Origin: Limisphaerales bacterium
GTDB taxonomy: Bacteria > Verrucomicrobiota > Verrucomicrobiia > Limisphaerales > UBA11358
Assembly (NCBI GenBank): GCA_003161635.1
Contig: PMOA01000065.1
Span: 159-39,845, forward strand
Reading direction: 5' to 3'
DNA length: 39,687 nucleotides
The notes under the pieces are model-generated. The model did not search any database and had not been told where the DNA came from. It saw only the letters and a list, made by a program, of their open reading frames with translations. Of this stretch, positions 19,704 to 36,276 are shown piece by piece (the first letter of the stretch is position 1; every line of letters starts with the position of its first letter). The translations under genes were made by a program, and so were the position numbers.

Positions 19704-21605
19704 ATGTGCGGCATCATCGGATACGTTGGTAAAAAAGCGGCCACGCCCATCATCCTCGAAGGATTGCGGCGGCTGGAATATCGCGGCTACGACAGCGCAG
19801 GCATCGCCGTGTTGCACAACGGCAGGTTACTGGTTCGCAAGAAAAAGGGGAAAATCGGCGAAGGCCTCGCCCGCCTGCTGAAATCCGAACCGGTCGCGGG
19901 GAATCTCGGCATCGGCCACACGCGCTGGGCCACGCACGGGCCGCCGTCGGATATCAATTCCCATCCGCACCTCGACCAATCCGGCCGGATCGCCGTCGTC
20001 CATAACGGCGTCATCGAAAATTACGACGCGCTCAAGCAAAAGCTGCTCGCCACCGGCCATAAATTCAAATCCGGCACCGACACCGAGGTGCTCGCGCATT
20101 TGATCGGCGATTATTACGAAAAACGGCGTAGCCGCCGATGTGAATCGGCGGATGGTCCGCGCTTTGACAAGCGCGGCTACAAGATTAACGGGAACGACCT
20201 TATCCAGGCCGTCTGCGATGCGCTGCGCGAAGTCATCGGCACCTACGGCATTGCGGTGATTTGCGCCGACGAGCCTGACACCATTGTCGGTGCGCGGCGC
20301 GGTTCGCCACTCATCATCGGCATCGGCACGGATGAAAATTTCCTGGCCAGTGATGCCAATGCCATCGTCGCCCACACAAAAAAAGTCGTTTATCTCAACG
20401 ACTACGACGTTGCGACGATTAAGTCCGAACGCTTCGACGTTCTGAACCTCGGCGCGGACACCGCCAACGTCCAGATCAGCAATCTCGAATTCAGCCAAGA
20501 GGACGCCGCGCGCGGGGATTTCGAGCACTTCATGCTCAAGGAAATTTTCGAGCAGCCGCGCACGGTGGAAAACGCCTTGCGCGGTCGCGTGGACACCGAA
20601 GGTGCGACCGCCAAGTTTGGCGGCTTAAACATGACGCCCGCGCAACTGTGCTCAATCAAACGCATCATCATCGCTGCCAGCGGCACGAGCTGGCACGCGG
20701 CGCTCGTGGGCGAGTATTTGATTGAGGAACTCGCGCAAATTCCGGTCGAGGTTGAGTTCGCGCACGAATTTTGTTACCGCAACGCGCCGCTCGAACGCGA
20801 CACCGTGCTGCTCGTTCTCTCGCAATCAGGCGAGACGGCGGACACGCTCGCCGCGTTGCGTGAGGCCAAGCGCCGCGGCCACCGCGCGCTCGCCATCGTC
20901 AACGTCGTCGGCAGCACCATCGCGCGCGAATCCGACGGCGGCATTTACATGCACGCCGGACCGGAAATCGGCGTGGCGTCCACCAAGGCCTTTGTCTCCA
21001 CGCTCACGATCCTGGCGCTGCTGGCTGTGCATCTGGGCCGGATGCGGACGTTGTCCGCCCGCCGGGCCCTGGAAATTCTACACGCGTTGGAGGCTGTGCC
21101 CAAACAGCTCGAATCCATCCTCGCGCAAAACAACGCGCTCAAAAAGATAGCGAAGAAATATGCGAAGGCCGACGACTTCTTTTTCCTTGGTCGCGGTTAC
21201 ACGTTCCCCATTGCGCTCGAAGGCGCGCTCAAGCTGAAGGAAATTTCCTACATCCACGCCGAGGGCTATTCGGCGGCGGAAATGAAGCACGGCCCGATTG
21301 CGTTGATTGACCCGAAGACGCCGACGGTTTTCCTGGTGCCGCAGGATTCAATGTATGACAAGACGATGGCTAACCTGGCAATGATTCGTGCGCGCAAAGG
21401 CCCCATCATCGCGCTGGCCACCGAAGGCGACAAACAAATCGGGAAGGTGGCCAACGACGTGATTTACCTGCCGAAGGCGTTGGAACTGATTAATCCGATT
21501 CTGGCCACCGTGCCGCTGCAGTTGTTCGCCTATCACATCGCCGTCGTGCGCGGCTGCGACGTGGACAAGCCGAGGAATCTGGCCAAGAGCGTGACGGTGG
21601 AATAA
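19704..21605 (+). CDS. glmS: glutamine--fructose-6-phosphate aminotransferase
   Basis: MCGIIGYVGKK; GYDSAGIA; LSQSGETADTLAALREAK; C-term RGCDVDKPRNLAKSVTVE. Confidence 0.97.
   Translation: MCGIIGYVGKKAATPIILEGLRRLEYRGYDSAGIAVLHNGRLLVRKKKGKIGEGLARLLKSEPVAGNLGIGHTRWATHGPPSDINSHPHLDQSGRIAVVHNGVIENYDALKQKLLATGHKFKSGTDTEVLAHLIGDYYEKRRSRRCESADGPRFDKRGYKINGNDLIQAVCDALREVIGTYGIAVICADEPDTIVGARRGSPLIIGIGTDENFLASDANAIVAHTKKVVYLNDYDVATIKSERFDVLNLGADTANVQISNLEFSQEDAARGDFEHFMLKEIFEQPRTVENALRGRVDTEGATAKFGGLNMTPAQLCSIKRIIIAASGTSWHAALVGEYLIEELAQIPVEVEFAHEFCYRNAPLERDTVLLVLSQSGETADTLAALREAKRRGHRALAIVNVVGSTIARESDGGIYMHAGPEIGVASTKAFVSTLTILALLAVHLGRMRTLSARRALEILHALEAVPKQLESILAQNNALKKIAKKYAKADDFFFLGRGYTFPIALEGALKLKEISYIHAEGYSAAEMKHGPIALIDPKTPTVFLVPQDSMYDKTMANLAMIRARKGPIIALATEGDKQIGKVANDVIYLPKALELINPILATVPLQLFAYHIAVVRGCDVDKPRNLAKSVTVE
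20128..20180. repeat. GTAG-type REP doublet in frame within glmS
   Basis: GTAG-CCGCCGAT-GTGA-ATCGGCGG-ATGGT-CCGCGCTT-TGAC-AAGCGCGG-CTAC: two perfect 8-bp stems with 4-nt loops and GTAG/CTAC termini. Confidence 0.9.
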
Positions 21606-21629
21606 AAGAGTAACAATCGGGCATACAGG

Positions 21630-21655
21630 TGTAAGAACAATAAAGTCGGAAACTG
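21630..21655 (+). promoter_or_regulatory. putative right-end transposase (TnsB-like) binding site
   Basis: TGTaagaACAATAAAGTCggAAACTG compared with Tn7-R TGTGGGCGGACAATAAAGTCTTAAACTG (recalled). Confidence 0.6.
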
Positions 21656-21964
21656 GACCGAACTTGTCCGGCTGCAATTTCTCAACGGTTCTGAGCATCT
21701 TAGCGCGAGTTTTTTGTGCTGCGGATACATTTCCCACAACTGTAGATTCGCTATTCCGCAACTACATATGGGGCCTTTTATGGCTCTTGCACCAATTTGT
21801 TGCGTGAACCTGGCCCGCCCGTGATAAGGTCGACCCAGCGAAGAGAAGTGGGCTGATTCATCCAGGTTGGACAGCGGATGAAGCTTCATTTCGGGTATGT
21901 TTCCAAACGGCAGAATGAATTGTAATTGAACGCCGCCGACGAATAAGATAATATCGCCCATGAA

Positions 21965-24900
21965 ATGAAAGAGATAGGAGTCAAGCGAGTCCAAAAGACG
22001 GATGCATTCGCAATAAACTATCACTTCTGCCGTCGCGTTTCCGGCGGTGTGTTCATCGCGCTGGTGTTGGCGATCTTCAGCGCCGCTCCGGCGCAGGCCA
22101 CCTCTGTGCTGGGCACAACCGCGCTTTTGGAAGGGCCGACGGCAGGCAGCGATAGCGTCGTTCTGGCTGTAGATCCTCCAGCCGCCTGGACGGCCACGGC
22201 CAATGACACCTGGCTGCACCTGAGTGTGGCCAACCAAAGCGGCACGGGCAGCACCAACGTGGTGTTCAGTTGCGACGCCAACCCGGGCGCCACGCGCGCG
22301 GGCACCCTCACCATCGCCGGCCACACGCTCACCGTAACCCAGGCTGCCCCGGGTTACGCCCCTGCGCCTTTAACGCCGACCGCGCTGGTGTCTTCAGGGC
22401 TGCACTATCCCGTTGGCGTTGTTGCGGACGGCGCGGGCAACGTTTACATCGCTGATACTATAAACAACGCCCTCAAACAATGGACGCCCGCAAGCAATAC
22501 CGTCACCGCGCTGGTTGCCTCCGGATTATCCTCTCCGTCGGGCATGGCCGTGGATGGCGCGGGCAATGTTTACGTCGCCGATCCCGGCAACAATGCGATT
22601 AAGGAATGGGTGGCGGCGAGCAACACTCTGAATACGTTGGTGGCCTCGGGATTGTCCTCCCCGTCCGGCGTCGCCATCGACGGCGCGGGGAATCTTTACA
22701 TTACCGAGACTGGCGGCAGCGCCGTAAAGAAATGGACGGCGACCAACAGCACCGTGAGCGTGCTGACGATATCGGGTTACGATGGCGGTCCAGCGGCGGT
22801 GGATTTGGTGGGCAATGTTTACTTTATCAATAACAACTTTGTCAATAACACTGCGCTCCAGAAGTGGACGGCCGCCAACGGCACGGTATTAACATTGGCT
22901 GTCTCGGGACCAATATATTCTCCGATTGGGATGGCCGTTGACGTATCCGGCAACGTTTACGTAGACGACCGGGACGCCATGATGATCAAGAAGTGGACGG
23001 CGGCCAGCAACACCTTGAGCACGCTGGTACAGTTCAGCCTGAACGCCATGTATGGTGGCGTGGCGGTCGATGGCGCGGGCAATATCTACTTCCCCTACTT
23101 CTCGGGCATCGATTACGCCATCTTGGAATTGCCGCATGCCTTCGTGGATGTAACGCCCAAATCGGAGACTGCCGACGCTGGCAGCGATGTCTTGTCCCAA
23201 GTGCTGCCCGCCACGGCCAATTTGCTTTCCCCGTTCGCGCCGACCAGCGATCGGTCCTGGCTGACCATCACGGGTACCACCAACGGTGTGGTGAGTTTTG
23301 CCTTTACCGCCACCATTTCCAATCGCACGGCTCATATCAATTTGCTGGGCCAAAACATTTCAATCAACCAGGGTCCCGTGTGTTCGCTGAGCCCAACTGC
23401 CCTCTCGGAAGGGCCAACTGCAGGAAGTGATAGTGTCGCTTTGACTGTGGTCCCTGAAACCGGTCTCTGGACGGCCACGGCCAATGCCAACTGGTTGCAT
23501 CTCAGCGCGACAAACCAAAGTGGCACCGGTAGCACCACGGTTGTCTTCAGTTACGATGCCAATCCCGGGGCCGCGCGCGTTGGCACCCTCACCATCGGCG
23601 GCCAGACGCTCACCGTGACGCAACAGGCCGCTCCAGCTTACCTGATTCCAACCGCGCTTTTGGAAGGGCCAACCGCGGGCAGTGATAGTGTCCTTCTCAC
23701 CGTGACTCCGGAAACCACTACGTGGACGGCTTCCGCCAATGATTCCTGGTTGCATCTCAGCGTGACGAACCAAAGCGGCACGGGTAGCACCACGATTGTC
23801 TTCAGTTACGATTCCAATCCCGGGGATACGCGCGTCGGCACCCTGACCATCGCCGGCCAGACGCTCACGGTGACACAACAAGGCCCTCCCTATGTCCTGG
23901 GCACAATTGCGCCTTTGGAAGGGCCGGCGGCGGGCACGGATAGTGTCGTTCTGGCCATCAGCCCTGAAAGCGACACCTGGACGGCTACGGCCAATGAGGC
24001 CTGGCTGCATTTGAGTGCGGCGAACCAAAGCGGCACGGGCAGCACCAACGTGGTGTTCAGTTACGACTCCAACCCGGGCGCCACGCGCGTGGGCACCCTC
24101 ACCGTCGCCGGTAAGACGCTCACCGTGACCCAAGCCGGCCCGACTTATGACGCCGTACCCCCATCATTGACCACGCTCGTTTCGACGGGTTTGTCCATGC
24201 CTTATGGCGTGGCGGTTGATAGCGCGGGGAATGTTTATATCGCTGACAGCTACCATAGCGCGATCAAGAAGTGGACGGCAGCCAGCAACACCGTGACCAC
24301 GCTGGTTTCCTCCGGATTGTCTTCTCCCCGAGGCGTGGCGATGGATAGCGTCGGCAATGTTTACATTGCTGATGCTTCTCTCAATGCGATCAGAAAGTGG
24401 ACGGCGGCCAGCAACACGGTAACCACGTTGGTCTCCTCGGGATTGTCCGCTCCCCAAGGAGTGGCGGTGGACGGCGGCGGCAATGTTTACATCGCCGACA
24501 CCTCGCACAACCTGATCAAAGAGTGGTCGGTGGCCAATAATAAAACGACTACACTGGTATCGTCGGGACTCAACGATCCCGAAGGCGTGGCAGTGGATGG
24601 CTCTGGCAATGTTTACATCGCCGATACCTACAACAACACGATCAAGAAGTGGACGGCGGCAAACAGCAACGTGACCACACTAGTCTCCTCGGGATTATAC
24701 TATCCTTCTGGCATCGCGGTCGATGGAGCGGGCAGTGTTTACATCGCTGACACCTATCACAGCATGATTAAGAAGTGGACGGCAGCCAGCAGCACCGTAA
24801 CCACGTTGGTCTCCTCGGGAGTCAGCTATCCGTGGGGTGTGGCGGTCGATGGCGCAGGCAACGTTTACATCGTCGACAACTACAGTAACTCGGTCAAAGA

Positions 24901-27895
24901 GCTGCCGCATGCCTTCGTGGACGCGACAACAAAATTCGAAGGTCCCGCCGCTGGGAGCGATGTATTGCCGGTGGTGCTGCCCGCCACGGCCAATTTGCTT
25001 CCGCCGTTCAGCCCGACCAATGACCAGGCATGGCTGACCATCAATGGAGTTACCAACGGCGTGCTGAGTTTCAGCTTCAGCGCCTCCGCCGCAACCAATC
25101 GCACCGCCCACCTGACTCTGCTGGGCCAATCCGTCCCGATTGTACAGCAGGGATCCAATTTCCTCGGCGCAACCGCGCTGCTGGAAGGGCCAGCGGCAGG
25201 CGCGGATAGCGTCGTTTTGCGCGTGATCCCGGAAACCTCTCCCTGGACGGCCAAAGCTAATGCCTCCTGGCTGCATCTGAGTGCGGCGAACCAAAGCGGT
25301 ACGGGCAGCACCAACGTGGTCTTCAGCTTCGATGCCAACCCGGACGTCACGCGCACGGGCACTCTCACTATCGCCGGCTGGACGCTGACCATTACCCAGG
25401 CCGGTTCAAGCTATATCGCGGCGCCTCAGCCACTGACAACGCTGGCCTCGGGGTTGAACCACCCGAATAGCGTGGCGATGGACGGCGCCGGGAATGTTTA
25501 CATCGCTGACACAGCCAATAACGCGATCAAAAAGTGGACGATGACGAGCAACGCGGTGACGACGCTGGTTGCCTCCGGGTTGAATGGTCCCGCCGGCGTG
25601 GCGGTTGATGGCGCGGGCAATGTTTACATTGCCGACCGCGGCAATAATGCGATCAAAAAGTGGATAGCGGCGAATAACGTCGTGGCCACGCTGGTCGCCT
25701 CGGAGCTGAACGCTCCCTCGGGTGTGGCGGTTGATGGCGTGGGCAATGTTTACGTTGCTGATACCGGCAATAACGCGGTCAGGAAATGGACGACGTCCAG
25801 CAACACGGTGACGACGCTGGTTGTCTCGGGGCTGAACGGTCCCGTCGGCGTGGCGGTGGACGGCGCGGGCAATGTTTACATTGCCGACACTGGCAATAAC
25901 ACGATCAAAAAGTGGACGGCGGCGAATAACTCCGTGACCACACTGATTGATTCGGCCTTGAATGGTCCCCAAGGGGTTGCGGTAGATGGCTCGGGCAATG
26001 TTTACATCGCTGACAGTGGCAATAACACGATCAAAAAGTGGACGGCGACTGACAACACTGTAACTACACTGGCTGCCTCGGGGTTGAACGGCGCCGCTGG
26101 CGTAGCGGTGGACGGCGCCCGCAATATTTACATTGCCGACACCGGCAACAACGCTGTTAAGGAACTGGTTTATGCCTTCGTCAACCCGATGCCCCGATAT
26201 GAAGGGGCTGATGCCGGCAGCGATGTGCCGATGGTGTTGCCGCTTACGGCAAATTTGCTCGCCCCGTTCACTCCGACCAGTGACCAGTCGTGGCTAACCG
26301 TCAACATCAGCACCAATGGCACGGTCAGTTTTACCTTCACCACCAACGTCGGCGACGTCCGCATAGCCCATGTCACTCTGCTCGGTCAAACCATCCTGTT
26401 CGTGCAGTCAGGTCTCTCATATGCCTTGGGCACAAGTTCCATTTTGGATGGTGCCACGGCCGGCACGGATAGCGTTGTTGTGGCCGTGAGTCCATCAATC
26501 GTTTCATGGACGGCCACGGCCAATGCCGGCTGGTTACACCTATCCACTGCAAGCCAAAGCGGAACGGGCAGCACCAACCTGGTGTTCAGCTACGATGCCA
26601 ACCCGGGCACCACCCGCACCGGCACCCTCACCATTGCCGGCCAGACGCTTGCTGTTGCTCAAGCTGGCTCAACCTATCTTGCGGCGCCAGCACCCGTTAC
26701 AACTCTGGTTTCTACGGGTTTGAACCAGCCTCTTAGCTTGGCAGTGGACGGCGCGGGCAATGTTTACATCGCTGATCGGGGCAATAACGCAATCAAGGAG
26801 TGGGTAGTGGCGAGCAATACCGTAACCACGCTTGTGGCTTCAGGATTGTCGTCGCCTTTTGGCGTAGCCGTGGATGGTGAGGGAAACGTTTACATCGCTG
26901 ACACTGGCAATAATGCGATCAAAAAGTGGGTGGCGGCGAGCAACAGCGTTATAATGCTGGTGGCCTCGGGTTTATCGTCCCCTTTTGAGTTGGCGGTGGA
27001 TGGCGCGGGCAACGTTTATATTGCAGATACTGGCGGGATCAAAAAATGGTCAGCCTTGAATAATACCGTGACCACGCAAGTGTCCATCTTCCAGCCCGCC
27101 GGGGTCGCGGTGGATGCAGCGGGTAACGTTTATATTGCTGACGACTATAGTGCGATCAAGAAATGGACGGCGGCTAAGAACATGCTGACCACGTTGGTTT
27201 CTGGGCTGAACGCGCCTGCCGGCGTCGCAGTGGATGGTGCCGGTAACGTTTACATCGCCGACACCTTCAATGGTGCAATCAAGAAATGGACAGCGGCGAA
27301 CAACACTGTGACCACTTTGGTCTTCACGGGATTAAATCGTCCGGAAAGCGTTGCGGTTGATAGCTCGGGCAATGTTTATATCGCTGATTCCAACAACAAC
27401 GCCGTCAAGGAACTGCCGCGCGCCTTCGTAGATCCGACTGGGAAGTTGGAAGCACCTGCGGCAGGCAACGATGTTTTGCCCGTAGTGCTGCCAGCCACGG
27501 TAAATTTGCTTCCCCCGTTCTCGCCGACGAGTGACCAACCATGGCTGGCCATCACCGGTTTCACCGATGGCGTCGTGAGCTTTACCTTTGGCGCCACCGT
27601 TTCCAACCGCAGCGCCAACATCACCTTGCTCGGCCAAACCATTTCCGTCACTCAAGCCGCTCCCCCGATCCTGGTTGACGCCCGGATGCTGACCAACGGC
27701 ATGTTTCAGTTTGCCTTCGCCTACGGCGACTCCAACGCCTCCTTTACCGTGCTGACGTCCACCAATCTTTCATTGCCGTTGGCCAACTGGATCGTGCTCG
27801 GCGTGGCCACCAATACCGCTCCCGGCCTGTTCCAGTTCGCCACTCCAGCCGCCACGAATGATCGGCAACGCTTCTACCGTGTCGCGTTGCCCTAG
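21965..27895 (+). CDS. giant secreted protein with alternating BACON-like and NHL-repeat modules (1976 aa)
   Basis: Signal-like leader ALVLAIFSAAPAQA; repeated WTATANxxWLHLSxxNQSGTGSTNVVFSYDANPGxTRxGTLTIAGxTLTVTQ (BACON-like) and SGLxxPxGVAVDGAGNVYIADTxNNAIKKWTAAxNTVTTL (NHL); C-term domain LTSTNLS...RFYRVALP. Confidence 0.92.
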   Translation: MKEIGVKRVQKTDAFAINYHFCRRVSGGVFIALVLAIFSAAPAQATSVLGTTALLEGPTAGSDSVVLAVDPPAAWTATANDTWLHLSVANQSGTGSTNVVFSCDANPGATRAGTLTIAGHTLTVTQAAPGYAPAPLTPTALVSSGLHYPVGVVADGAGNVYIADTINNALKQWTPASNTVTALVASGLSSPSGMAVDGAGNVYVADPGNNAIKEWVAASNTLNTLVASGLSSPSGVAIDGAGNLYITETGGSAVKKWTATNSTVSVLTISGYDGGPAAVDLVGNVYFINNNFVNNTALQKWTAANGTVLTLAVSGPIYSPIGMAVDVSGNVYVDDRDAMMIKKWTAASNTLSTLVQFSLNAMYGGVAVDGAGNIYFPYFSGIDYAILELPHAFVDVTPKSETADAGSDVLSQVLPATANLLSPFAPTSDRSWLTITGTTNGVVSFAFTATISNRTAHINLLGQNISINQGPVCSLSPTALSEGPTAGSDSVALTVVPETGLWTATANANWLHLSATNQSGTGSTTVVFSYDANPGAARVGTLTIGGQTLTVTQQAAPAYLIPTALLEGPTAGSDSVLLTVTPETTTWTASANDSWLHLSVTNQSGTGSTTIVFSYDSNPGDTRVGTLTIAGQTLTVTQQGPPYVLGTIAPLEGPAAGTDSVVLAISPESDTWTATANEAWLHLSAANQSGTGSTNVVFSYDSNPGATRVGTLTVAGKTLTVTQAGPTYDAVPPSLTTLVSTGLSMPYGVAVDSAGNVYIADSYHSAIKKWTAASNTVTTLVSSGLSSPRGVAMDSVGNVYIADASLNAIRKWTAASNTVTTLVSSGLSAPQGVAVDGGGNVYIADTSHNLIKEWSVANNKTTTLVSSGLNDPEGVAVDGSGNVYIADTYNNTIKKWTAANSNVTTLVSSGLYYPSGIAVDGAGSVYIADTYHSMIKKWTAASSTVTTLVSSGVSYPWGVAVDGAGNVYIVDNYSNSVKELPHAFVDATTKFEGPAAGSDVLPVVLPATANLLPPFSPTNDQAWLTINGVTNGVLSFSFSASAATNRTAHLTLLGQSVPIVQQGSNFLGATALLEGPAAGADSVVLRVIPETSPWTAKANASWLHLSAANQSGTGSTNVVFSFDANPDVTRTGTLTIAGWTLTITQAGSSYIAAPQPLTTLASGLNHPNSVAMDGAGNVYIADTANNAIKKWTMTSNAVTTLVASGLNGPAGVAVDGAGNVYIADRGNNAIKKWIAANNVVATLVASELNAPSGVAVDGVGNVYVADTGNNAVRKWTTSSNTVTTLVVSGLNGPVGVAVDGAGNVYIADTGNNTIKKWTAANNSVTTLIDSALNGPQGVAVDGSGNVYIADSGNNTIKKWTATDNTVTTLAASGLNGAAGVAVDGARNIYIADTGNNAVKELVYAFVNPMPRYEGADAGSDVPMVLPLTANLLAPFTPTSDQSWLTVNISTNGTVSFTFTTNVGDVRIAHVTLLGQTILFVQSGLSYALGTSSILDGATAGTDSVVVAVSPSIVSWTATANAGWLHLSTASQSGTGSTNLVFSYDANPGTTRTGTLTIAGQTLAVAQAGSTYLAAPAPVTTLVSTGLNQPLSLAVDGAGNVYIADRGNNAIKEWVVASNTVTTLVASGLSSPFGVAVDGEGNVYIADTGNNAIKKWVAASNSVIMLVASGLSSPFELAVDGAGNVYIADTGGIKKWSALNNTVTTQVSIFQPAGVAVDAAGNVYIADDYSAIKKWTAAKNMLTTLVSGLNAPAGVAVDGAGNVYIADTFNGAIKKWTAANNTVTTLVFTGLNRPESVAVDSSGNVYIADSNNNAVKELPRAFVDPTGKLEAPAAGNDVLPVVLPATVNLLPPFSPTSDQPWLAITGFTDGVVSFTFGATVSNRSANITLLGQTISVTQAAPPILVDARMLTNGMFQFAFAYGDSNASFTVLTSTNLSLPLANWIVLGVATNTAPGLFQFATPAATNDRQRFYRVALP

Positions 27896-28046
27896 CGGAG
27901 ATTCCCTCGGGGCGTACCCTGATTTGATGGGTTCGGTCTTCGATGCCCGCTCGCTACGCCAGTCGATGTTGAAGTTTTCTCCTGCCCCCGTCGGGTTGTA
28001 GTAACGCGTTACACTTCCAGCGGAAGGTCTTGGGGAACGTGGCAGC

Positions 28047-28197
28047 CAGTTCCCAACTTCATTACCTGCGGTTCCGTCGAAAGCACGTGAAAACAGGCAT
28101 CAGTTCCGAACTCTATTCCCCACCAATTGGATATTTCCCCGCTGGAAATCAACAGCTTGACGCGGTTCCCAGTTCCCATCTTAATTCCCGGAGTACA
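28047..28197. repeat. three dispersed putative left-end TnsB-like sites plus terminal ACA
   Basis: 28047 CAGTTCCCAACTTCATT; 28101 CAGTTCCGAACTCTATT; 28170 CAGTTCCCATCTTAATTCCCGGAGTACA. Confidence 0.65.
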
Positions 28198-28213
28198 TGC
28201 CGACGCCAATGTA

Positions 28214-28663
28214 ATGGTCTTACGGTCTTTCCATATTGAAGATTTCGACGCGGTCATCGCCTTGTGGCGGCGCACTGAGGGCGTAGGATTGAACGAGTCC
28301 GACACGCGTCGCGCCATCGCCGCGTATCTGCGACGCAATCCGAATCTCAGTTTTGTTGCGGAAAAGGACGGTCGAATCATCGGCGCCGTGCTGTGCGGCC
28401 ACGATGGCCGGCGCGGTTACCTGCATCACCTGGCCGTGTCAAAACGCCACCGGCGTTGCGGCATAGGCCGGCAACTCGTGAGTGCCTGTCTGGCAAAACT
28501 CCGCAAGGCGGGTATCCCAAAATGTAACATCTTTATCTTTGCTGACAACAGGGCAGGGATGAAGTTCTGGGCGCACACCGGCTGGAGTCTGCGAACAGAA
28601 CTACGGCTAATGCAAATCCGCCTGGATGACGGAGGTGGAGCAAGAGGAGACTGCCAGTGCTGA
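28214..28663 (+). CDS. GNAT family N-acetyltransferase
   Basis: LRSFHIEDFDAVIALWRRTEGVGL...GRIIGAVLCGHDGRRGYLHHLAVSKRHRRCGIGRQLV. Confidence 0.9.
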   Translation: MVLRSFHIEDFDAVIALWRRTEGVGLNESDTRRAIAAYLRRNPNLSFVAEKDGRIIGAVLCGHDGRRGYLHHLAVSKRHRRCGIGRQLVSACLAKLRKAGIPKCNIFIFADNRAGMKFWAHTGWSLRTELRLMQIRLDDGGGARGDCQC

Positions 28664-28792
28664 ACGGTTCTGGCTGCTGTCCGGCACGAAGGCCCCTGCG
28701 TCAGTTCAAAAACCTTTTTCAACTTTGGTTGTCATTGACACGGCCCGGCTAAAGCAGGAAATTTGAACTGTTAGTGATTACAGATTAAAATC

Positions 28793-29404
28793 ATGAAAGC
28801 CGTTGCCCTAAATGGAAGCCCGCGCAAGGGCGGGAACACTGAAATTCTTCTAAAAAAGGTGCTTGCGCCGCTGGCCGTATCTGGCTGGGAAACCGAGTTC
28901 ATCCAACTCGGCGGAACACCCATCCGCGGATGCCAGGCCTGTTACCAGTGTTTCAAGAAGAAAAATTCCCGGTGCAGCCAGAAGGGTGATGTTTTCAACC
29001 AGTGCATGGAGAAAATGGTCGCGGCCGACGCGATCATCCTCGGATCGCCGACGTACTTCACCGACGTGAGCGCTGAAATGAAGGCACTGTTGGATCGCGC
29101 CGGGCTGGTGGCGCTGGCCAACGGCGGATTGTTCCGCGGAAAAATCGGGGCCGCCGTGGTGGCGGTCAGACGCGGCGGCGGCACGCATGCCTTTGACACG
29201 ATGAACCACATGTTCCTCATGTCCGGCGCCATTGTGCCGGGATCCACGTATTGGAACCTCGGATTTGGCTTGGACAAGGGCGAGGTGGCCAAGGACGACG
29301 AGGCTTCGCGCAACATGAATGATCTGGGCCAAACCATCGCCTGGTTGGGCGCAGCGATCCATCAACACGCCGGGAGCCGCCCGCCCGCCGTGGTTCGCGA
29401 ATGA
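28793..29404 (+). CDS. flavodoxin family protein / NADPH-dependent FMN reductase
   Basis: MKAVALNGSPRKGGNTEILL; IRGCQACYQCFKK; IILGSPTYFTDVSAEMKALLDRAG. Confidence 0.88.
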   Translation: MKAVALNGSPRKGGNTEILLKKVLAPLAVSGWETEFIQLGGTPIRGCQACYQCFKKKNSRCSQKGDVFNQCMEKMVAADAIILGSPTYFTDVSAEMKALLDRAGLVALANGGLFRGKIGAAVVAVRRGGGTHAFDTMNHMFLMSGAIVPGSTYWNLGFGLDKGEVAKDDEASRNMNDLGQTIAWLGAAIHQHAGSRPPAVVRE

Positions 29405-30570
29405 ATTTCCTCGAACCCGTTGCCATGCAATTTCGCAAATTCGGCAAACTGGATTGGAACGCTTCGGTCCTGGGCTTTGGTTGCATGCGCCTGCCTACCG
29501 TGGAGGGAAATTCCCACGGCCCCAATATCAACGAAGCGGAATCTGTGCGCATGATCCGCCACGCCCTGGATCGGGGCGTGAACTATTTCGACACCGCTTA
29601 CATCTATCACGACGGCAACAGCGAGACCGTTCTCGGCAAGGCGTTGCGCGGCCATAGAGACCAGGTGAAAATAGCCACAAAGTCCCCGGTATGGTTGATC
29701 CAAAAGGAAGCCGATTTTGACCGGATGTTGAACGAGCAACTGCGCAAGCTCCAGACCGATTGCATTGATTTTTATCTGCTCCACGCCCTGGATAAAAAGC
29801 GCTGGAACGAAATCGTCCCGAAATACAAACTCCTGGAACACGCCGACGCTGCGATTCGCGACGGACGCATCCGCCACCTGGGTTTTTCGTTCCACGACAA
29901 TTACGAGAGCTTCCCTGACATCATCAACGGTTACGATCGCTGGACGTTCTGCCAGATTCAATACAACTACATGGACACGGAGAACCAGGCGGGCACTCAG
30001 GGATTGAAGCTCGCCGCCGCCAAGGGCCTGGCCGTTGTGATCATGGAACCACTTCTCGGCGGCAGGCTGGCCCATCCGCCGTCGTCCATTCGCCAGGTGA
30101 TCGAGCGCTCCAGCGTGAAGCGCTCTGCGGCGGACTGGGCGTTGCAATGGCTTTGGAACCAGCCCGAAGTGTCGGTTGTGTTAAGCGGGATGAGCAACAT
30201 GGACCAGGTGAAAGCCAACCTGGATTCGGCGGGTCACGCTCGCAGCCATTCGTTTCAGGCGGCGGAACTGAAACTGATCGCAGAATTGCAGCAAAAGTAC
30301 CGGGAACGAACCGCCATTCCTTGCACCAAGTGCAACTATTGCATGCCCTGTCCAAACGGAGTGAACATCCCGGCCAATTTTGAAATCTACAACGAAGCGT
30401 TTCTCCACGAAGACATTCCCGGCGCGCGCTTCAAGTATCAGATTTTTATCACGGAAGCAGCGCGGGCCGGTGTTTGCGTTGCCTGCCACGACTGTGAAGA
30501 CCATTGTCCTCAGAAAATCCCGATCAGCGAATGGATGCCCAAGGTTCACGCGCTGCTCGGCGTGGCGTGA
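29401..30570 (+). CDS. aldo/keto reductase with C-terminal cysteine-rich (4Fe-4S-like) region
   Basis: VLGFGCMRLPTVEG; YFDTAYIYHDGNSE; CTKCNYCMPCPNGVNIP; CVACHDCEDHCPQKIPI. Start may be 29425. Confidence 0.92.
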   Translation: MNFLEPVAMQFRKFGKLDWNASVLGFGCMRLPTVEGNSHGPNINEAESVRMIRHALDRGVNYFDTAYIYHDGNSETVLGKALRGHRDQVKIATKSPVWLIQKEADFDRMLNEQLRKLQTDCIDFYLLHALDKKRWNEIVPKYKLLEHADAAIRDGRIRHLGFSFHDNYESFPDIINGYDRWTFCQIQYNYMDTENQAGTQGLKLAAAKGLAVVIMEPLLGGRLAHPPSSIRQVIERSSVKRSAADWALQWLWNQPEVSVVLSGMSNMDQVKANLDSAGHARSHSFQAAELKLIAELQQKYRERTAIPCTKCNYCMPCPNGVNIPANFEIYNEAFLHEDIPGARFKYQIFITEAARAGVCVACHDCEDHCPQKIPISEWMPKVHALLGVA

Positions 30571-30702
30571 TTCATCGCAGCGGCGGAGATTACACCGCAA
30601 GCCCCGTTGGGCGAACAGCTCCTGGGCCGGAAGCAGGGCGATGTCCTGAAATTAAAACTCGCCGATGCGCAAAACCAATACCGGGTGACGGCAGTTGTCT
30701 GA
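30571..30702 (+). pseudogene. orphan C-terminal fragment of a GreA/GreB-like protein
   Basis: Reads EITPQAPLGEQLLGRKQGDVLKLKLADAQNQYRVTAVV*, resembling the GreA C-terminus (sPLGraLLGkkvGDevev...yeIv.V); no N-terminal part present. Confidence 0.55.
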
Positions 30703-30852
30703 GCAAAGGGCGCCGGTATCCACGGGAAAGCCCGGCTGAAGCTCCTCGGAGCGAAAGATAATAGCCCAGGGCAAACGACCCACCGCGTCGAAGTGAAACG
30801 AAGACGGGAGTACAATCAGTGAATCGTTCTCCCTCAACCATCGGTCCAAGGG

Positions 30853-31701
30853 CTATTTCACGGGGGGTTCAGGCGTCTCAGTTCCAGAGGACTGCGGTGG
30901 GGAATTAGTGGACGTACCGGGCTTCACTGCCGGCACGGTGTCGGCTCCGGCGAGTTCATCCGGCAGAATGGTGATGGCAATGCGGCGGTTCCTGGCTCTT
31001 CCCTCGGCGGTCGCATTGTCGGCGAGGGGGCGATATTCACCGTAACCGATGGCCCCGACGCGGTGCGGGTCCACACCCGCCTTTTCGGTGAGAAAATGCA
31101 CGGCCGCAAGGGCGCGGGCGGTGGAAAGTTCCCAGTTGCTGGCGAACCGATTGCGGGCTTCGGGCCGGATGGGCACGTTGTCCGTGTGACCAATGACGTG
31201 AATCTTCAGTCGAGGATGTCCGGCGAGAATGGCTGCAATCTTGCGCATCACGGATTCTCCGGCCGGTTTCAAGATCGCCTCGCCGGAATCAAACATGACG
31301 CGGTCGAGGATGTTCACGGTGAGCTTGCCTTGCAGATTGGAGATGGTGACATCCTTGGATTCGAGGTCTGCGCGCATCTCATTTTCGAGGCCTTTTGCCA
31401 TCTGGGCGGCGGTGTCCTTTTCCTGTTCCAGATCGGCAACCTTGGATTGCAGGGCCGCAATCTGGTCTTTGTCCTTCTGGTTTTCGCCTTGTGCGCTGGC
31501 GAGACTGGCATTGGCATCATCCAGCCTGGTCCGGAGCGATTCCAGTCCACGCAGTTTACCCATGGCCGAGGCCCAGAGCAGCAATGACACAATCAACAGC
31601 ACGGCAAGGATGCCGGCGGCAATCCAGCCCCACCGGGAGGCATCCGGGCCGCGCCTGGCCTTGGTCACATATTCAGTAAATGGTTGTTTGCCTTCGCTCA
31701 T
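30853..31701 (-). CDS. OmpA family protein with TM anchor and coiled coil
   Basis: IAAGILAVLLIVSLLLWAS; LKIHVIGHTDNVPI...NWELSTARALAAVHFL...GYGEYRPLADNATAEGRARNRRIAITI. Confidence 0.88.
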   Translation of the reverse strand: MSEGKQPFTEYVTKARRGPDASRWGWIAAGILAVLLIVSLLLWASAMGKLRGLESLRTRLDDANASLASAQGENQKDKDQIAALQSKVADLEQEKDTAAQMAKGLENEMRADLESKDVTISNLQGKLTVNILDRVMFDSGEAILKPAGESVMRKIAAILAGHPRLKIHVIGHTDNVPIRPEARNRFASNWELSTARALAAVHFLTEKAGVDPHRVGAIGYGEYRPLADNATAEGRARNRRIAITILPDELAGADTVPAVKPGTSTNSPPQSSGTETPEPPVK

Positions 31702-31922
31702 GTTGTGTCGGGTGGATTTAATCAGACCGCTCAGGACCGTCCAAGCGAAGAATCTTCCTTTCCGATTCTTGCCTTTCAACTCACACCTAACAGCCCGTTC
31801 AAGACGTAACAGCCGACGCCTGCCGGGTCGTAGCACTGGTGAGGAGCCTCTGACTTTTCATAACTCTCAACCCTCAACCCTCAACCCGATCAGAGCCTCG
31901 TCACCTCGTCTCCTACCGTGAT

Positions 31923-33962
31923 TCAATTGATGGCGCTGCGAAGGACGTCGAACATTTTTTTGCCGGCGGCCGGATTCACCGGCTGTTTGTCCCTGACATC
32001 GGCGTCCTCCACCAGTTCGGGCGGCAGTTCCTTCAGAAATCGCGATGGATGACAGGGCATCAACTGGCCGTAGCGCATCCGGCCTGCGCAATGGCTGAGG
32101 GTGAGCGACTGCATCGCACGCGTCACCGCCACGTAAAACAGCCGCCGTTCCTCATCGAGCGTGCCTTCCGCCGCCGAACGTGCGTGCGGCAACAGGCCAT
32201 CCTCCAATCCCACGATATAGACGCGCGGAAATTCCAGCCCCTTGCAACTGTGCATGGTGATGAGCGTCACGGCATCGCCAGTCTCCGTTTCCTCCTCGCG
32301 TTCGCTGTCGAGGGTGATGTCCTCCAAAAAGGATTGCAGCCGGTCGGCCAACGGGTCGGCGGGCCGGCCAAAATTGTCGAGCGTGGCGGTCAATTCGCGC
32401 AAGTTGCAAATGCGGGCCTCGGCGTTTTCGGGATTTTTTTCCAACCGCTGGAGTTCTTTGAAATAGCCGGTTTCCTCCAGAAAATGTTCGCTCCAGGATT
32501 GCAACGGCCGCGGTGACGAGGCGGCGTGATGCAGTTGCACGCGGGTCTTTTCGATGAAGGCAACAAACGCCTCGATGCTGCCGCGCGCCTTGGTTTGGAA
32601 ATCCGCCTGCACCACCGGATTTTTCATCGCGGCGAACACGGAACCCTTCCGTTCGTGGCTCGCGCCGAGCAGACGTTCCATGGTCACATCGCTCAACCCC
32701 CGCGCCGGCACGTTGGCAATACGCAGCAGGCTGATGTCGTCGTGCGGATTGATGAAGACCTTCAGATAGGCGAGAAAATCGCGGATTTCCGACCGGTCGA
32801 AAAAACTCTGGCCGCCGATGAGATGATAACGGACGCCGGCCGAGCGGAACGCGGTTTCGAGCGGCCGCGACTGCATGTTCGTGCGGAACAAAACGGCGTG
32901 GTGCAACCAGGGGACCCCGTGTGCGCGCCGGGCAAATTCAATCTGTTCGACCAGGTTGCGCGCTTCATCGTCATCATTCGTGTAGGCGCGCAGGACGATC
33001 TTGTCGCCCCGGCCTTTGCCCGACCAGAGCTGTTTGGGGCGGCGGCGCACGTTGTTTTTTATGATGGCATTGGCGGCGTCAAGAATCGTGTTCGTCGAGC
33101 GGTAATTCTGTTCGAGCTTGATGATTTTCACCTCCGGAAAATGTTTTTCCAGGTCGAGCAGGTTGCCGATTTCGGCGCCACGCCAGCCGTAAATGCTCTG
33201 GTCGTCGTCGCCCACGACGCAGAAATTCCGATGTTTCACGGTCAGGGCGTGGACGAGCTGGAACTGTGTGGCGTTGGTATCCTGATATTCGTCCGCCATG
33301 ACGTAACGATATCTGGCGCGGCACGCTTCGAGCACGTCCGAATGTTCCTTGAACAGCCGCAGCGTGAGCAGAATCAAGTCGTCGAAATCCACGGCGTTGC
33401 AGGCGCGCAGGGCGGTTTCGTAGCGCGACCGGATGTGCTGGGCCAGCGCGCGGACGCTTTCATCGGCAAAGACGGCGGCGCGTTCGCCCCCGTTTTTGAA
33501 CCGGCTCAACAGCGCCAGAACCGCCGCCGGGTCCGTTTTTTCGCTCCCGCCGCGCGGGACGGAAATTTGCGCGAGGATTTTTTTAACGGCGCCGAGCTGT
33601 TCCGATTCGTTGTAGATGACGAAATTCCGTTTGTAACCGAGCCGTTCGATGTGCTGGCGCAAAATCCGGACGCAAAGGGAATGGAACGTGCAGATGGTCG
33701 GGCGATTCAATTTATCGCCGGCTTTGGCGGTCTGGCGCGGAATCAATTTTGCCACGCGCTCCTGCATTTCGCGCGCTGCCTTGTTGGTGAAGGTGACGGC
33801 GAGGATATTGGCGGGTGGCACGCCCTTGGCGATGAGGTGGGCGATGCGGAACGTGATGACGCGGGTCTTGCCGGTGCCGGCCCCGGCCAGGATCAGCAGC
33901 GGCCCCTTGAGGGTTTCGACCGCCTGGCGCTGCTGAGGATTGAGCGAATTCAGATTCAACAC
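31923..33962 (-). CDS. UvrD/PcrA/Rep-family ATP-dependent helicase
   Basis: LNPQQRQAVETLKGPLLILAGAGTGKTRVIT; VMADEYQDTN; VVGDDDQSIYGWRGAEI; LEQNYRST; TMHSCKGLEFPRVYIVGLEDGLLPH. Confidence 0.95.
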   Translation of the reverse strand: MLNLNSLNPQQRQAVETLKGPLLILAGAGTGKTRVITFRIAHLIAKGVPPANILAVTFTNKAAREMQERVAKLIPRQTAKAGDKLNRPTICTFHSLCVRILRQHIERLGYKRNFVIYNESEQLGAVKKILAQISVPRGGSEKTDPAAVLALLSRFKNGGERAAVFADESVRALAQHIRSRYETALRACNAVDFDDLILLTLRLFKEHSDVLEACRARYRYVMADEYQDTNATQFQLVHALTVKHRNFCVVGDDDQSIYGWRGAEIGNLLDLEKHFPEVKIIKLEQNYRSTNTILDAANAIIKNNVRRRPKQLWSGKGRGDKIVLRAYTNDDDEARNLVEQIEFARRAHGVPWLHHAVLFRTNMQSRPLETAFRSAGVRYHLIGGQSFFDRSEIRDFLAYLKVFINPHDDISLLRIANVPARGLSDVTMERLLGASHERKGSVFAAMKNPVVQADFQTKARGSIEAFVAFIEKTRVQLHHAASSPRPLQSWSEHFLEETGYFKELQRLEKNPENAEARICNLRELTATLDNFGRPADPLADRLQSFLEDITLDSEREEETETGDAVTLITMHSCKGLEFPRVYIVGLEDGLLPHARSAAEGTLDEERRLFYVAVTRAMQSLTLSHCAGRMRYGQLMPCHPSRFLKELPPELVEDADVRDKQPVNPAAGKKMFDVLRSAIN

Positions 33963-34038
33963 GCGCGCGGAGTTTAATTTCCGTTCCGCTCAATGCAATG
34001 TTGTTGAGGTATTTTTTGCGCCGGTGAAATCGAAACGT

Positions 34039-34095
34039 CACGGCTGCGACGTGGACAAGCCCTGCAACCTGGCCAAGGGCGTGACGGAGCAGTGA
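34039..34095 (+). pseudogene. orphan copy of the glmS 3' end (HGCDVDKPCNLAKGVTEQ*)
   Basis: 47/57 nt match to 21549-21605 in frame, including the stop position. Confidence 0.85.
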
Positions 34096-34096
34096 T

Positions 34097-35344
34097 TTAC
34101 TGTTTCCGAAATTTCTCCAACTCGGCGATAAATGCTTGTGGGCCGCCGGACAAATAGCCGACTTGGCGGCCAATTTCTTTTCCGTCCGCGTTTAATGCAA
34201 CATAAGTTGGAAAACCATTCACTTTGAATTTTGTCTGAAGTTCTTCATTGTTTTTCTTGAGCGCATCGCTTTGATTTTTAGTATTTGGAAAATCCACCAG
34301 CACCAGTTCCAGGTTTGTCCTGGCGTAGGCGGCAAATTCAGGCTTGGACAAAATATCATCATCAAACTTCATGCACCACACGCACCAATCAGAGCCGGTG
34401 AAATCAAGCAGCACGATTTTGTTTGCGGCCCTGGCTTGCGCCAATGCTTTCGGCAAGTCGGTCGCCCAAGGCAATTCTGACACACGTTTTTCAGAAAGCA
34501 CCGCAGCCTGGCTCTTGCGAGTTTTGGCAAGCTTTGCCGCCCCTAATTCAGCCAAAATTTTCTGAAGCTCTTCGGAGGATTTGGCGATTTGTATGTCTCC
34601 TTTTGGCAGGGAAAATTCCTGGTCGGGTATTGGCTGGTTGATTTCTACTTTGTTATAAACCCAGTCCTCCAATTGTTCGCCAAGATGATTTCGTTCCGTA
34701 TGACCGATAATTACTGCGTCGCTTTTTCGCACGTAATAATCAGTTTCAGAACGAATGAATTTTCTAAAATCTCCGCCGAACGCTGCCTCTTCTTCTTTCG
34801 TACGGTCTTTGTAATAAACGGCTTTTATCGCGTCCAGGAACTTTGGCGTCATGCAACGGGCGATAACAATGCAGTCGTTTGTGCCAACCATCTCCGACTT
34901 GAGCACCTTGAATTCGTAAGGATGGTCGAATTTTGCAGCAATCGTTTTTTCCAAATCCTCTCCCGCTTCGTATTCCGTTTTGATTATCTGTCCATACGTG
35001 AAAGCGTAACCGCCACTTTTAAGTTTGTAACTCGTCCACTGAAAATTTCCATCCCGAATCGCTCTTTTGGTCTCCACAGATCCATCGGCGTTCCTTCTTT
35101 GAAAAAATTCTACGCGAGCGTCGTCATTGGTCTTGGCGAAAGGGTCTGTGATTTTTGAAGATGTGGAACCTGATTTTTCACCATGAAAAAAGGCCAGGCA
35201 CTGATTTGTTGATTGCGCCTTCTCCAAAACTTTTTCAGGCGAATCTTGCCGCCACCAGTTGTCCGCCAATGGTTGCGCTGCCAATCCGGCAACCGGCAAA
35301 AGCCAGGCCAAAAAAGCCGGCCAAAAAAGTTTTCTCATGGGCAA
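34097..35344 (-). CDS. thioredoxin-fold protein with N-terminal signal and extra domain
   Basis: LLDFTGSDWCVWCMKFDDDILSKPEF...LVLVDFPN...KFKVNGFPTYVALNADGKEIGRQVGYLSGG. Confidence 0.85.
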   Translation of the reverse strand: MPMRKLFWPAFLAWLLPVAGLAAQPLADNWWRQDSPEKVLEKAQSTNQCLAFFHGEKSGSTSSKITDPFAKTNDDARVEFFQRRNADGSVETKRAIRDGNFQWTSYKLKSGGYAFTYGQIIKTEYEAGEDLEKTIAAKFDHPYEFKVLKSEMVGTNDCIVIARCMTPKFLDAIKAVYYKDRTKEEEAAFGGDFRKFIRSETDYYVRKSDAVIIGHTERNHLGEQLEDWVYNKVEINQPIPDQEFSLPKGDIQIAKSSEELQKILAELGAAKLAKTRKSQAAVLSEKRVSELPWATDLPKALAQARAANKIVLLDFTGSDWCVWCMKFDDDILSKPEFAAYARTNLELVLVDFPNTKNQSDALKKNNEELQTKFKVNGFPTYVALNADGKEIGRQVGYLSGGPQAFIAELEKFRKQ

Positions 35345-35464
35345 CGTCTAGCATTTGTAAGGCTCGCGTGCAAAAAATCAATTTGATTAAAATGTGTATC
35401 CCATCCGTGTTCAATCTGTGATGTATTGCCCCGCGTTTTGTCGCAAGCTGCTGATGGCTTCAAG

Positions 35465-35812
35465 TCATCCAAACGTGTCGCCGTTCCAGCCCCAATTGCC
35501 GGCGGGGACGTCGGTGAAGTTCAGGTAAATCCGGTCCGGCGGCACGCCGAGGGATTCTTTCAACAAACTGCCAACCTTTTGCGAGAGCTGACGGTTCACG
35601 TCTCCACCCAGGCCACCGATGCTGCGGATGTCCACAAACGCGGCCTCACCCGGTTTGCCGGACATGAGGATGGCCGCGGGGCTGACGACGACCATGACGT
35701 ATTGTTCCGGTTTGCCGATTGTCCCGGCCACGATTTTGGAGAGGGACGCGAGCAACGCCTGCTTCTTGTCATCCGAGAGCGCGACGGTGGTTTCAAGTTT
35801 CAACAATGGCAT
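35465..35812 (-). CDS. MIF-like tautomerase family protein
   Basis: MPLLKLETTVALSDDKKQALLASLSKIVAGTIGKPEQYVMVVV...FVDIRSIGGLGGDVNRQLS...VPPDRIYLNFTDVPAGNWGWNGDTFG. Confidence 0.9.
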   Translation of the reverse strand: MPLLKLETTVALSDDKKQALLASLSKIVAGTIGKPEQYVMVVVSPAAILMSGKPGEAAFVDIRSIGGLGGDVNRQLSQKVGSLLKESLGVPPDRIYLNFTDVPAGNWGWNGDTFG

Positions 35813-35993: not shown

Positions 35994-36227
35994 ATGAGCG
36001 CAATTACTTTCAAAGCTCACTATGACGGCAAACGGATTTGCCTGGACGAGCCTTACAAGCTTCAGCGCGACTCGAAGCTCATCGTAACGGTTGTGTCTGG
36101 CGACTCGTTGGAAGATGAGCGGCAGGCGTGGCTGGCTGCGTCTCAAGCCGGTCTCGCCCGCGCCTACGGTGAAGATGAGCCGGATTATTTCCACGCCGCG
36201 CTCCGCGAAACGCCGCCAAACAAATGA
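35994..36227 (+). CDS. small protein, possible antitoxin
   Basis: MSAITFKAHYDGKRICLDEPYKLQRDSKLIVTVVSGD...; 4-nt overlap with a MazF-like start. Confidence 0.5.
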   Translation: MSAITFKAHYDGKRICLDEPYKLQRDSKLIVTVVSGDSLEDERQAWLAASQAGLARAYGEDEPDYFHAALRETPPNK

Positions 36228-36276
36228 AAGAGGGGGACGTAATTCTCGTCCCGCTGCCACAAGCGGATGGCCGACA
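36224..36276 (+). pseudogene. truncated MazF/PemK-like toxin N-terminus
   Basis: MKEGDVILVPLPQADGRQ matches the MazF/PemK start pattern, then homology breaks off. Confidence 0.5.

Follow-up and report, generated by a model that had tools for sequence, protein, structure and literature searches.

A stray copy of the glmS 3' end at the apparent edge of a small insertion in a Limisphaerales genome, and its counterparts in relatives

The 3' end of glmS contains the segment recognised by Tn7-type TnsD (PMC11406308). In Tn7 and Tn7-like elements at attTn7 this gene end is the recognised site, and the DNA analysed here (the window, a stretch of 39,687 nucleotides from a Limisphaerales bacterium) resembles them in having a Tn7-like element 24 nt after glmS. 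It differs in that Tn7 comes without duplication of the glmS end, whereas the window holds a second, orphan glmS 3' end (tail), which the element does not include and which no transposon end adjoins. Islands integrated by tyrosine recombinases at the 3' ends of tRNA or protein genes offer another comparison, as direct repeats of the gene's 3' end bound the insert and the gene is left intact; the old end is displaced and decays, tandem arrays are possible, and both features recur in the cases described below. Unlike such islands, however, the present inserts go down to a single gene and no integrase was found. To our knowledge, glmS is known as a Tn7 site and not as a target of integrative elements of this gene-3'-end kind. 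SCC-type elements at rlmH, together with CIMEs, likewise show repeats of a gene 3' end and several recombinase-less segments in tandem, but no Ccr-type recombinase was traced here, and some tails are found at a distance from the target gene. Integron gene cassettes are similar in being small units of one or two genes, each with a site-like sequence; in contrast, the repeat seen here is a glmS tail and not a structured attC, and no integron integrase adjoins it.

The window lies on contig C129 of a draft genome (G000) of 4.3 Mb in 159 contigs, and the 57-mer at 34039-34095 is present in it exactly as an earlier note had written it, with 47/57 bases identical to the last 57 nt of glmS (21549-21605); 45 of these matches fall among the 54 positions from GGCTG on, and two among the three positions before it. 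Homology to glmS begins at base 34041, giving a non-coding copy of 55 bases. Upstream of that base the match is 19/60, and past the stop it is 3/24, both at chance level, so that no rest of glmS lies beside the fragment, as had been claimed. The same note had correctly recognised the fragment as the glmS 3' end with the segment read by TnsD (PMC11406308), and a Tn7-like element is indeed present at the genome's own glmS. Its protein-altering changes, and the absence of a glmS reading frame before it, mark the fragment as a dead copy of that gene end. When the 4.3-Mb genome was searched with the 57-mer, the real glmS was the sole other match (E 3.9e-11) and there was no third copy. With a 54-position profile built from 32 glmS tails the fragment scored 70.7 bits, and in about 800 kb of shuffled windows nothing scored at least 10 bits. 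The suggestion that comparison of the 57-mer would identify a donor lineage was not borne out: the donor is not callable from 54 nt, and the best matches (49/54) were to two unrelated glmS genes.

The surroundings of the fragment were compared with those in close relatives (genomes are given as G numbers, loci as L numbers). G281 (L120) is collinear with the window at 85-94% nucleotide identity and has in common with it the gene order PFK, HAD, glmS, GNAT, FMN reductase, aldo-keto reductase (AKR), OmpA, uvrD, MIF, PLD. The homology upstream of uvrD stops at window position 34017 and resumes at 35465, and the stretch 34018-35464, comprising the tail and a thioredoxin gene, is replaced by 341 bp in G281. 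In G299 (L270), uvrD and MIF are ~330 bp apart with neither tail nor thioredoxin gene between them, and 190 bp of this spacer are common to G299 and G281 at 98%. The simplest reading of the comparison is one insertion in the window's lineage. As uvrD and MIF adjoin without tail or thioredoxin gene in two close relatives, the orphan tail is, by this comparison, the left edge of an AT-rich insertion of ~1.4 kb that consists of the glmS tail and a DsbH-like thioredoxin gene. The earlier note had named, as evidence against itself, the same fragment conserved next to uvrD in relatives that have no island, and unrelated to any glmS; in other relatives no tail adjoins uvrD. The thioredoxin gene is convergent to the tail, its stop codon starting 2 nt after the tail's stop, and the C-terminal domain of its product resembles DsbH with a score below the family cut-off. 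Its GC content is 46.2%, against 57% for the window, and is among the three lowest of 769 sliding windows. The insertion is located away from glmS, with tail at one side only, and among the matches listed no relative had the thioredoxin gene beside glmS. Elsewhere in the window, positions 30586-30699 hold a 38-codon 3' fragment of a GreA-like gene, which has a full copy on contig C53 and is the gene found beside glmS in G022 and G241, and positions 36121-36272 match, at 80% identity, a portion of the toxin-antitoxin-like module of two genes that G115 has in its tail array.

The 6.6-kb Tn7-like element behind glmS starts, 24 nt past the stop, with TGTAAGAACAATAAAGTCGGAAACTGG, and its TGT...ACA termini were placed by inspection. 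With a Tn7 end query sequence that matched plasmid R721 at 100%, the best TnsB-site match of the whole window (16/20) was the site at 21637, and the three distal sites lie on the opposite strand within 143 bp, so that both ends have inward-facing sites; none of 60 shuffles had three same-strand TnsB-type sites within 160 bp. The glmS-GNAT junction of G281 represents the empty site, without window 21630-28197. Tn7 target duplications are 5 bp, and no such duplication was found at the flanks of the element (ACAGG vs TGCCG); the element is therefore a remnant or rearranged. A search for tnsABC genes inside it found none, the NHL/BACON gene being alone there, and a search of the whole genome for TnsA gave no match. 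Comparable Tn7-like ends follow the glmS stop at 20-25 nt in G038, G034 and G223, and at about that distance in G299; in G223 the element comes with a gene for TnsA (PF08722) and, beside it, a large transposase-like gene. In this order, glmS is a Tn7-type site. The glmS-adjacent element of G223 (L110 194-3171), with these two genes, also has AATAAAGTCGCCAAC repeats, and in G299 a truncated IS21 IstB-like gene (L271 4118-4741) was observed just inside the Tn7-like end after glmS. The window's element ends 5.8 kb before the orphan tail, and no TnsB-type site was found near 34095, the tail having no transposon end beside it.

Table 1. Coordinates of the features discussed, as positions in the window.
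Feature	Position	Strand	Remarks
glmS, intact	19704..21605	+	translation; own tail 21552-21605 by tail profile
Tn7-like element remnant	21630..28197		TGT at 21630, ACA at 28195-28197; no tns genes
TnsB-type site, glmS-proximal end	21637..21656	+	16/20 to Tn7 site verified in plasmid R721
NHL-repeat/BACON protein, 1976 aa, sole cargo of Tn7-like element	21965..27895	+	Pfam PF01436, PF13004
TnsB-type site, distal end	28046..28065	-	15/20 to Tn7 site
TnsB-type site, distal end	28100..28119	-	14/20 to Tn7 site
GNAT acetyltransferase ORF, ancestral glmS neighbour	28127..28663	+	Pfam PF00583; directly after glmS in G281
TnsB-type site, distal end	28169..28188	-	15/20 to Tn7 site
uvrD, left neighbour of insertion	31923..33962	-	Pfam PF00580, PF13361
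Inserted segment (tail + thioredoxin gene) in uvrD-MIF spacer	34018..35464		right edge not exact; absent in G281, G299
Orphan glmS 3' tail, decayed	34041..34095	+	last 18 codons + stop; 47/57 to own glmS
DsbH/DsbD-like thioredoxin-fold gene	34097..35344	-	Pfam PF13098; NCBIfam NF043050 below cut-off
MIF/tautomerase gene, right neighbour of insertion	35465..35812	-	Pfam PF01187; adjoins uvrD in G281, G299

Orphan tails were found to form a class. A main profile survey covered 249 genomes, about 156 of them with a tail match, and with G299, which was found separately, nine orphan tails were recorded in seven genomes of the order: G000, G003, G022 (two, one of them very decayed), G115 (two), G241, G273 and G299. 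The six that are well preserved (G000, G003, G022, both of G115, and G299) come from five genomes in two families and are 37-54/54 identical to the glmS of their own genome from GGCTG on, while upstream of GGCTG the match to glmS is 10-20/60. All six have a common left edge 54 nt before the end of the stop codon, perhaps 4 nt earlier in G299. Since the search profiles were able to find longer tails, the search itself did not create this common edge, although shorter tails may have escaped it; for the most decayed tails (G241, G273) no left edge can be assigned. The right edges of the repeats vary between cases. In G003, G022 and G115 the insert lies between direct repeats of the glmS 3' end, against a tail at one side only in the window. 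The G003 insert measures 5.6 kb, has truncated genes at either end and is enclosed by two tails that are identical over 84 bp, and in G115 a tandem array consists of glmS, a 2.9-kb phosphoesterase gene, a tail, the two-gene toxin-antitoxin-like module and a further tail. In G115, the tail closest to the contig end is identical (54/54) to the glmS tail of G241, a genome of another family, and matches its own glmS at 50/54, which hints at transfer, although 54 nt are too short to be firm. The class is unusual, and no description of duplicated glmS ends was found among the papers on Tn7 and glmS that were searched.

A number of candidates were left out of this count. An extra tail near uvrD in G012 lies inside coding sequence and was attributed to chance, second tails in G005 and G097 reflected contig-end overlap or a different glmS contig, and a weak match in G041 fell inside coding-like sequence. 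Four tail matches in viral contigs were all real glmS, and a pattern scan of GTDB for tails lacking arginine in front gave, among the 80 loci listed, only glmS with leucine at that position. Several sequences near the tails were also recorded. The bases that precede the tail in two genomes belonging to different families (L270 7057-7090 and L078 293-322) resemble the start of kdsB (GTGAAAATCGTTGGTATTATTCCC), a tentative identification based on ten-codon resemblance and one tblastn match. An IS200-like Y1 transposase, possibly a RAYT, adjoins the tail array of G022 (L021 6290-6778). A dispersed repeat, GAAAGATAATAGCCCAGGGCAA, occurs in several genomes (window 30750-30774, L120 12210-12246 and L078 160-200), once directly after an orphan tail.

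The fate of the original gene end can be followed at glmS itself. In G281, glmS is followed directly by GNAT; in G241 a GreA-like gene lies between the two, and in G022 both recN, on the glmS side, and the GreA-like gene lie there. The sequence before GNAT in G022 gave a continuous alignment to the glmS 3' end, stop, spacer and GNAT of G281 (local score 208), and the original glmS end was therefore left at that place, with an intact-ended glmS further upstream. The tail parts alone scored 44 in G022 and 56 in G241, against shuffled maxima of 24.5 and 28.5. A second old tail was seen in G022 where recN meets the GreA-like gene, and the spacer behind it resembles that after glmS in G241. In both genomes glmS is intact and the old tail decayed. 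Inserts with a fresh tail thus appear from the series G281-G241-G022 to sit between glmS and its neighbour, the old tail decaying on the far side.

Direct observations are the duplicated gene end, the insertion as compared with two relatives, the recurrence of such tails in seven genomes, their shared left edge and the displacement in G241 and G022. Attachment-type integration at the glmS 3' end is given close to an even chance of explaining the tails, with microhomology-driven rearrangement as its main rival. Segments of one to a few genes would carry a copy of about the last 54 nt of glmS as an attachment-type sequence and would integrate into the glmS 3' end, where the segment's own tail would complete the gene; the old tail would be pushed to the far side of the insert and then decay. 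At times a segment may land elsewhere and leave one tail, and the window would be such a case. The glmS tail presumably travels with the segment, and integration would be carried out by a site-specific recombinase, probably supplied in trans or since lost. Integration at a gene 3' end is favoured because the gene stays intact, the insert supplies a fresh end, the old end is displaced and the left edge is common. No integrase, transposase or other recombinase was found inside the tail-associated inserts, and among the matches listed in a search of 28 genomes there was no Phage_integrase near glmS. Sharing of glmS flanks between species was 0.7% downstream vs 44% upstream, and the idea of a hotspot downstream of glmS was initially drawn from this low synteny. 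It was dropped, as a flank of the uvrD control was nearly as scrambled (1.1% on one side, 12% on the other); low synteny is therefore general here and was not used as evidence. The more specific proposal, in which this order has an undescribed mobile gene-cassette system that recombines at the glmS 3' end with its recombinase in trans, is considered unlikely.

The competing possibility that illegitimate, microhomology-driven rearrangement produced the tails, by template switching or end joining and perhaps during the uptake of foreign DNA, is a serious one, if less probable than attachment-type integration. Repair would copy a foreign or distant segment, re-enter glmS at the GC-rich CGCGCGGCTGCG 54 nt before the stop and recopy the tail. 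Such a process needs no recombinase, and none was found; the right edges are variable, and the inserted segment of G003 has truncated genes at both ends. Moreover, the pre-tail sequence of G299 and G115 resembles the kdsB start (GTGAAAATCGTTGGTATTATTCCCGCGCGG), with ~9-10 bases common to glmS at the junction, and in G136 kdsB is found ~1.1 kb downstream of glmS. However, six tails, spread over five genomes and two families, agree in their left edge more regularly than this mechanism leads one to expect, and there is little microhomology upstream in G000, G003, G022 and tail 2 of G115. A by-product of Tn7-like transposition, in which TnsD/TniQ-guided elements would duplicate or capture the glmS tail and so create pseudo-attTn7 sites, could be imagined from the Tn7-like ends 20-25 nt past the glmS stop in G000, G038, G034 and G223 (the last with tnsA/tnsB), and from the end near that position in G299 when set against the empty site of G281. 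In G003 the orphan tail is followed by a TGT-type end at +23/+24 with two Tn7-like 20-mers (14/20 each), and the 84-bp repeat extends a few bases into that end, making a link with Tn7-like transposition possible for this genome and not for the other tails. As a general account it is quite improbable: the other orphan tails have no Tn7-like end adjacent, the repeat reaches 54 nt into glmS as against target duplications of 5 bp in Tn7, the window's own genome has no TnsA, and the window's element stops 5.8 kb short of the fragment.

The earlier note had taken glmS and the fragment as direct repeats that bracket 21606-34038 and had suggested an island boundary or captured att site. As geometry the direct repeats stand, and displaced old tails do occur in G022 and G241, yet the reading of the two as the boundaries of one 12.4-kb island at glmS, with the fragment as its displaced original end, is very improbable. 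G281 has the same genes in the same order without the fragment, and the Tn7-like element ends at 28197 and not at 34038. Because G281 and G299 keep the intervening or adjoining genes with neither tail nor thioredoxin gene between uvrD and MIF, two losses would be needed, and the ancestral neighbour of glmS, GNAT, would fall within the supposed island. The idea of an att site was nevertheless partly right, and stray glmS ends do mark insertion junctions in relatives. That the orphan tail is a chance similarity or an assembly artefact, as its short sequence and the draft state of the assembly (159 contigs) could suggest, has a practically negligible probability, given the E value of 4e-11, a profile score of 70.7 bits that was not reached by chance, and fragments of the same kind in six other genomes; as 10 of its 57 bases are unlike glmS, it is not a misassembled copy.

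The window itself is thereby corrected from a 12.4-kb island to a 1.4-kb insertion and a separate 6.6-kb Tn7-like remnant. If attachment-type integration is the true origin of the tails, stray glmS ends would be usable as markers of past insertions, and if the attachment-type site is one apart from Tn7, two kinds of mobile DNA would have in common a gene end that is among the most conserved in bacteria. Should the cassette reading also hold, small tail-carrying segments would build arrays of passenger genes behind an essential gene.
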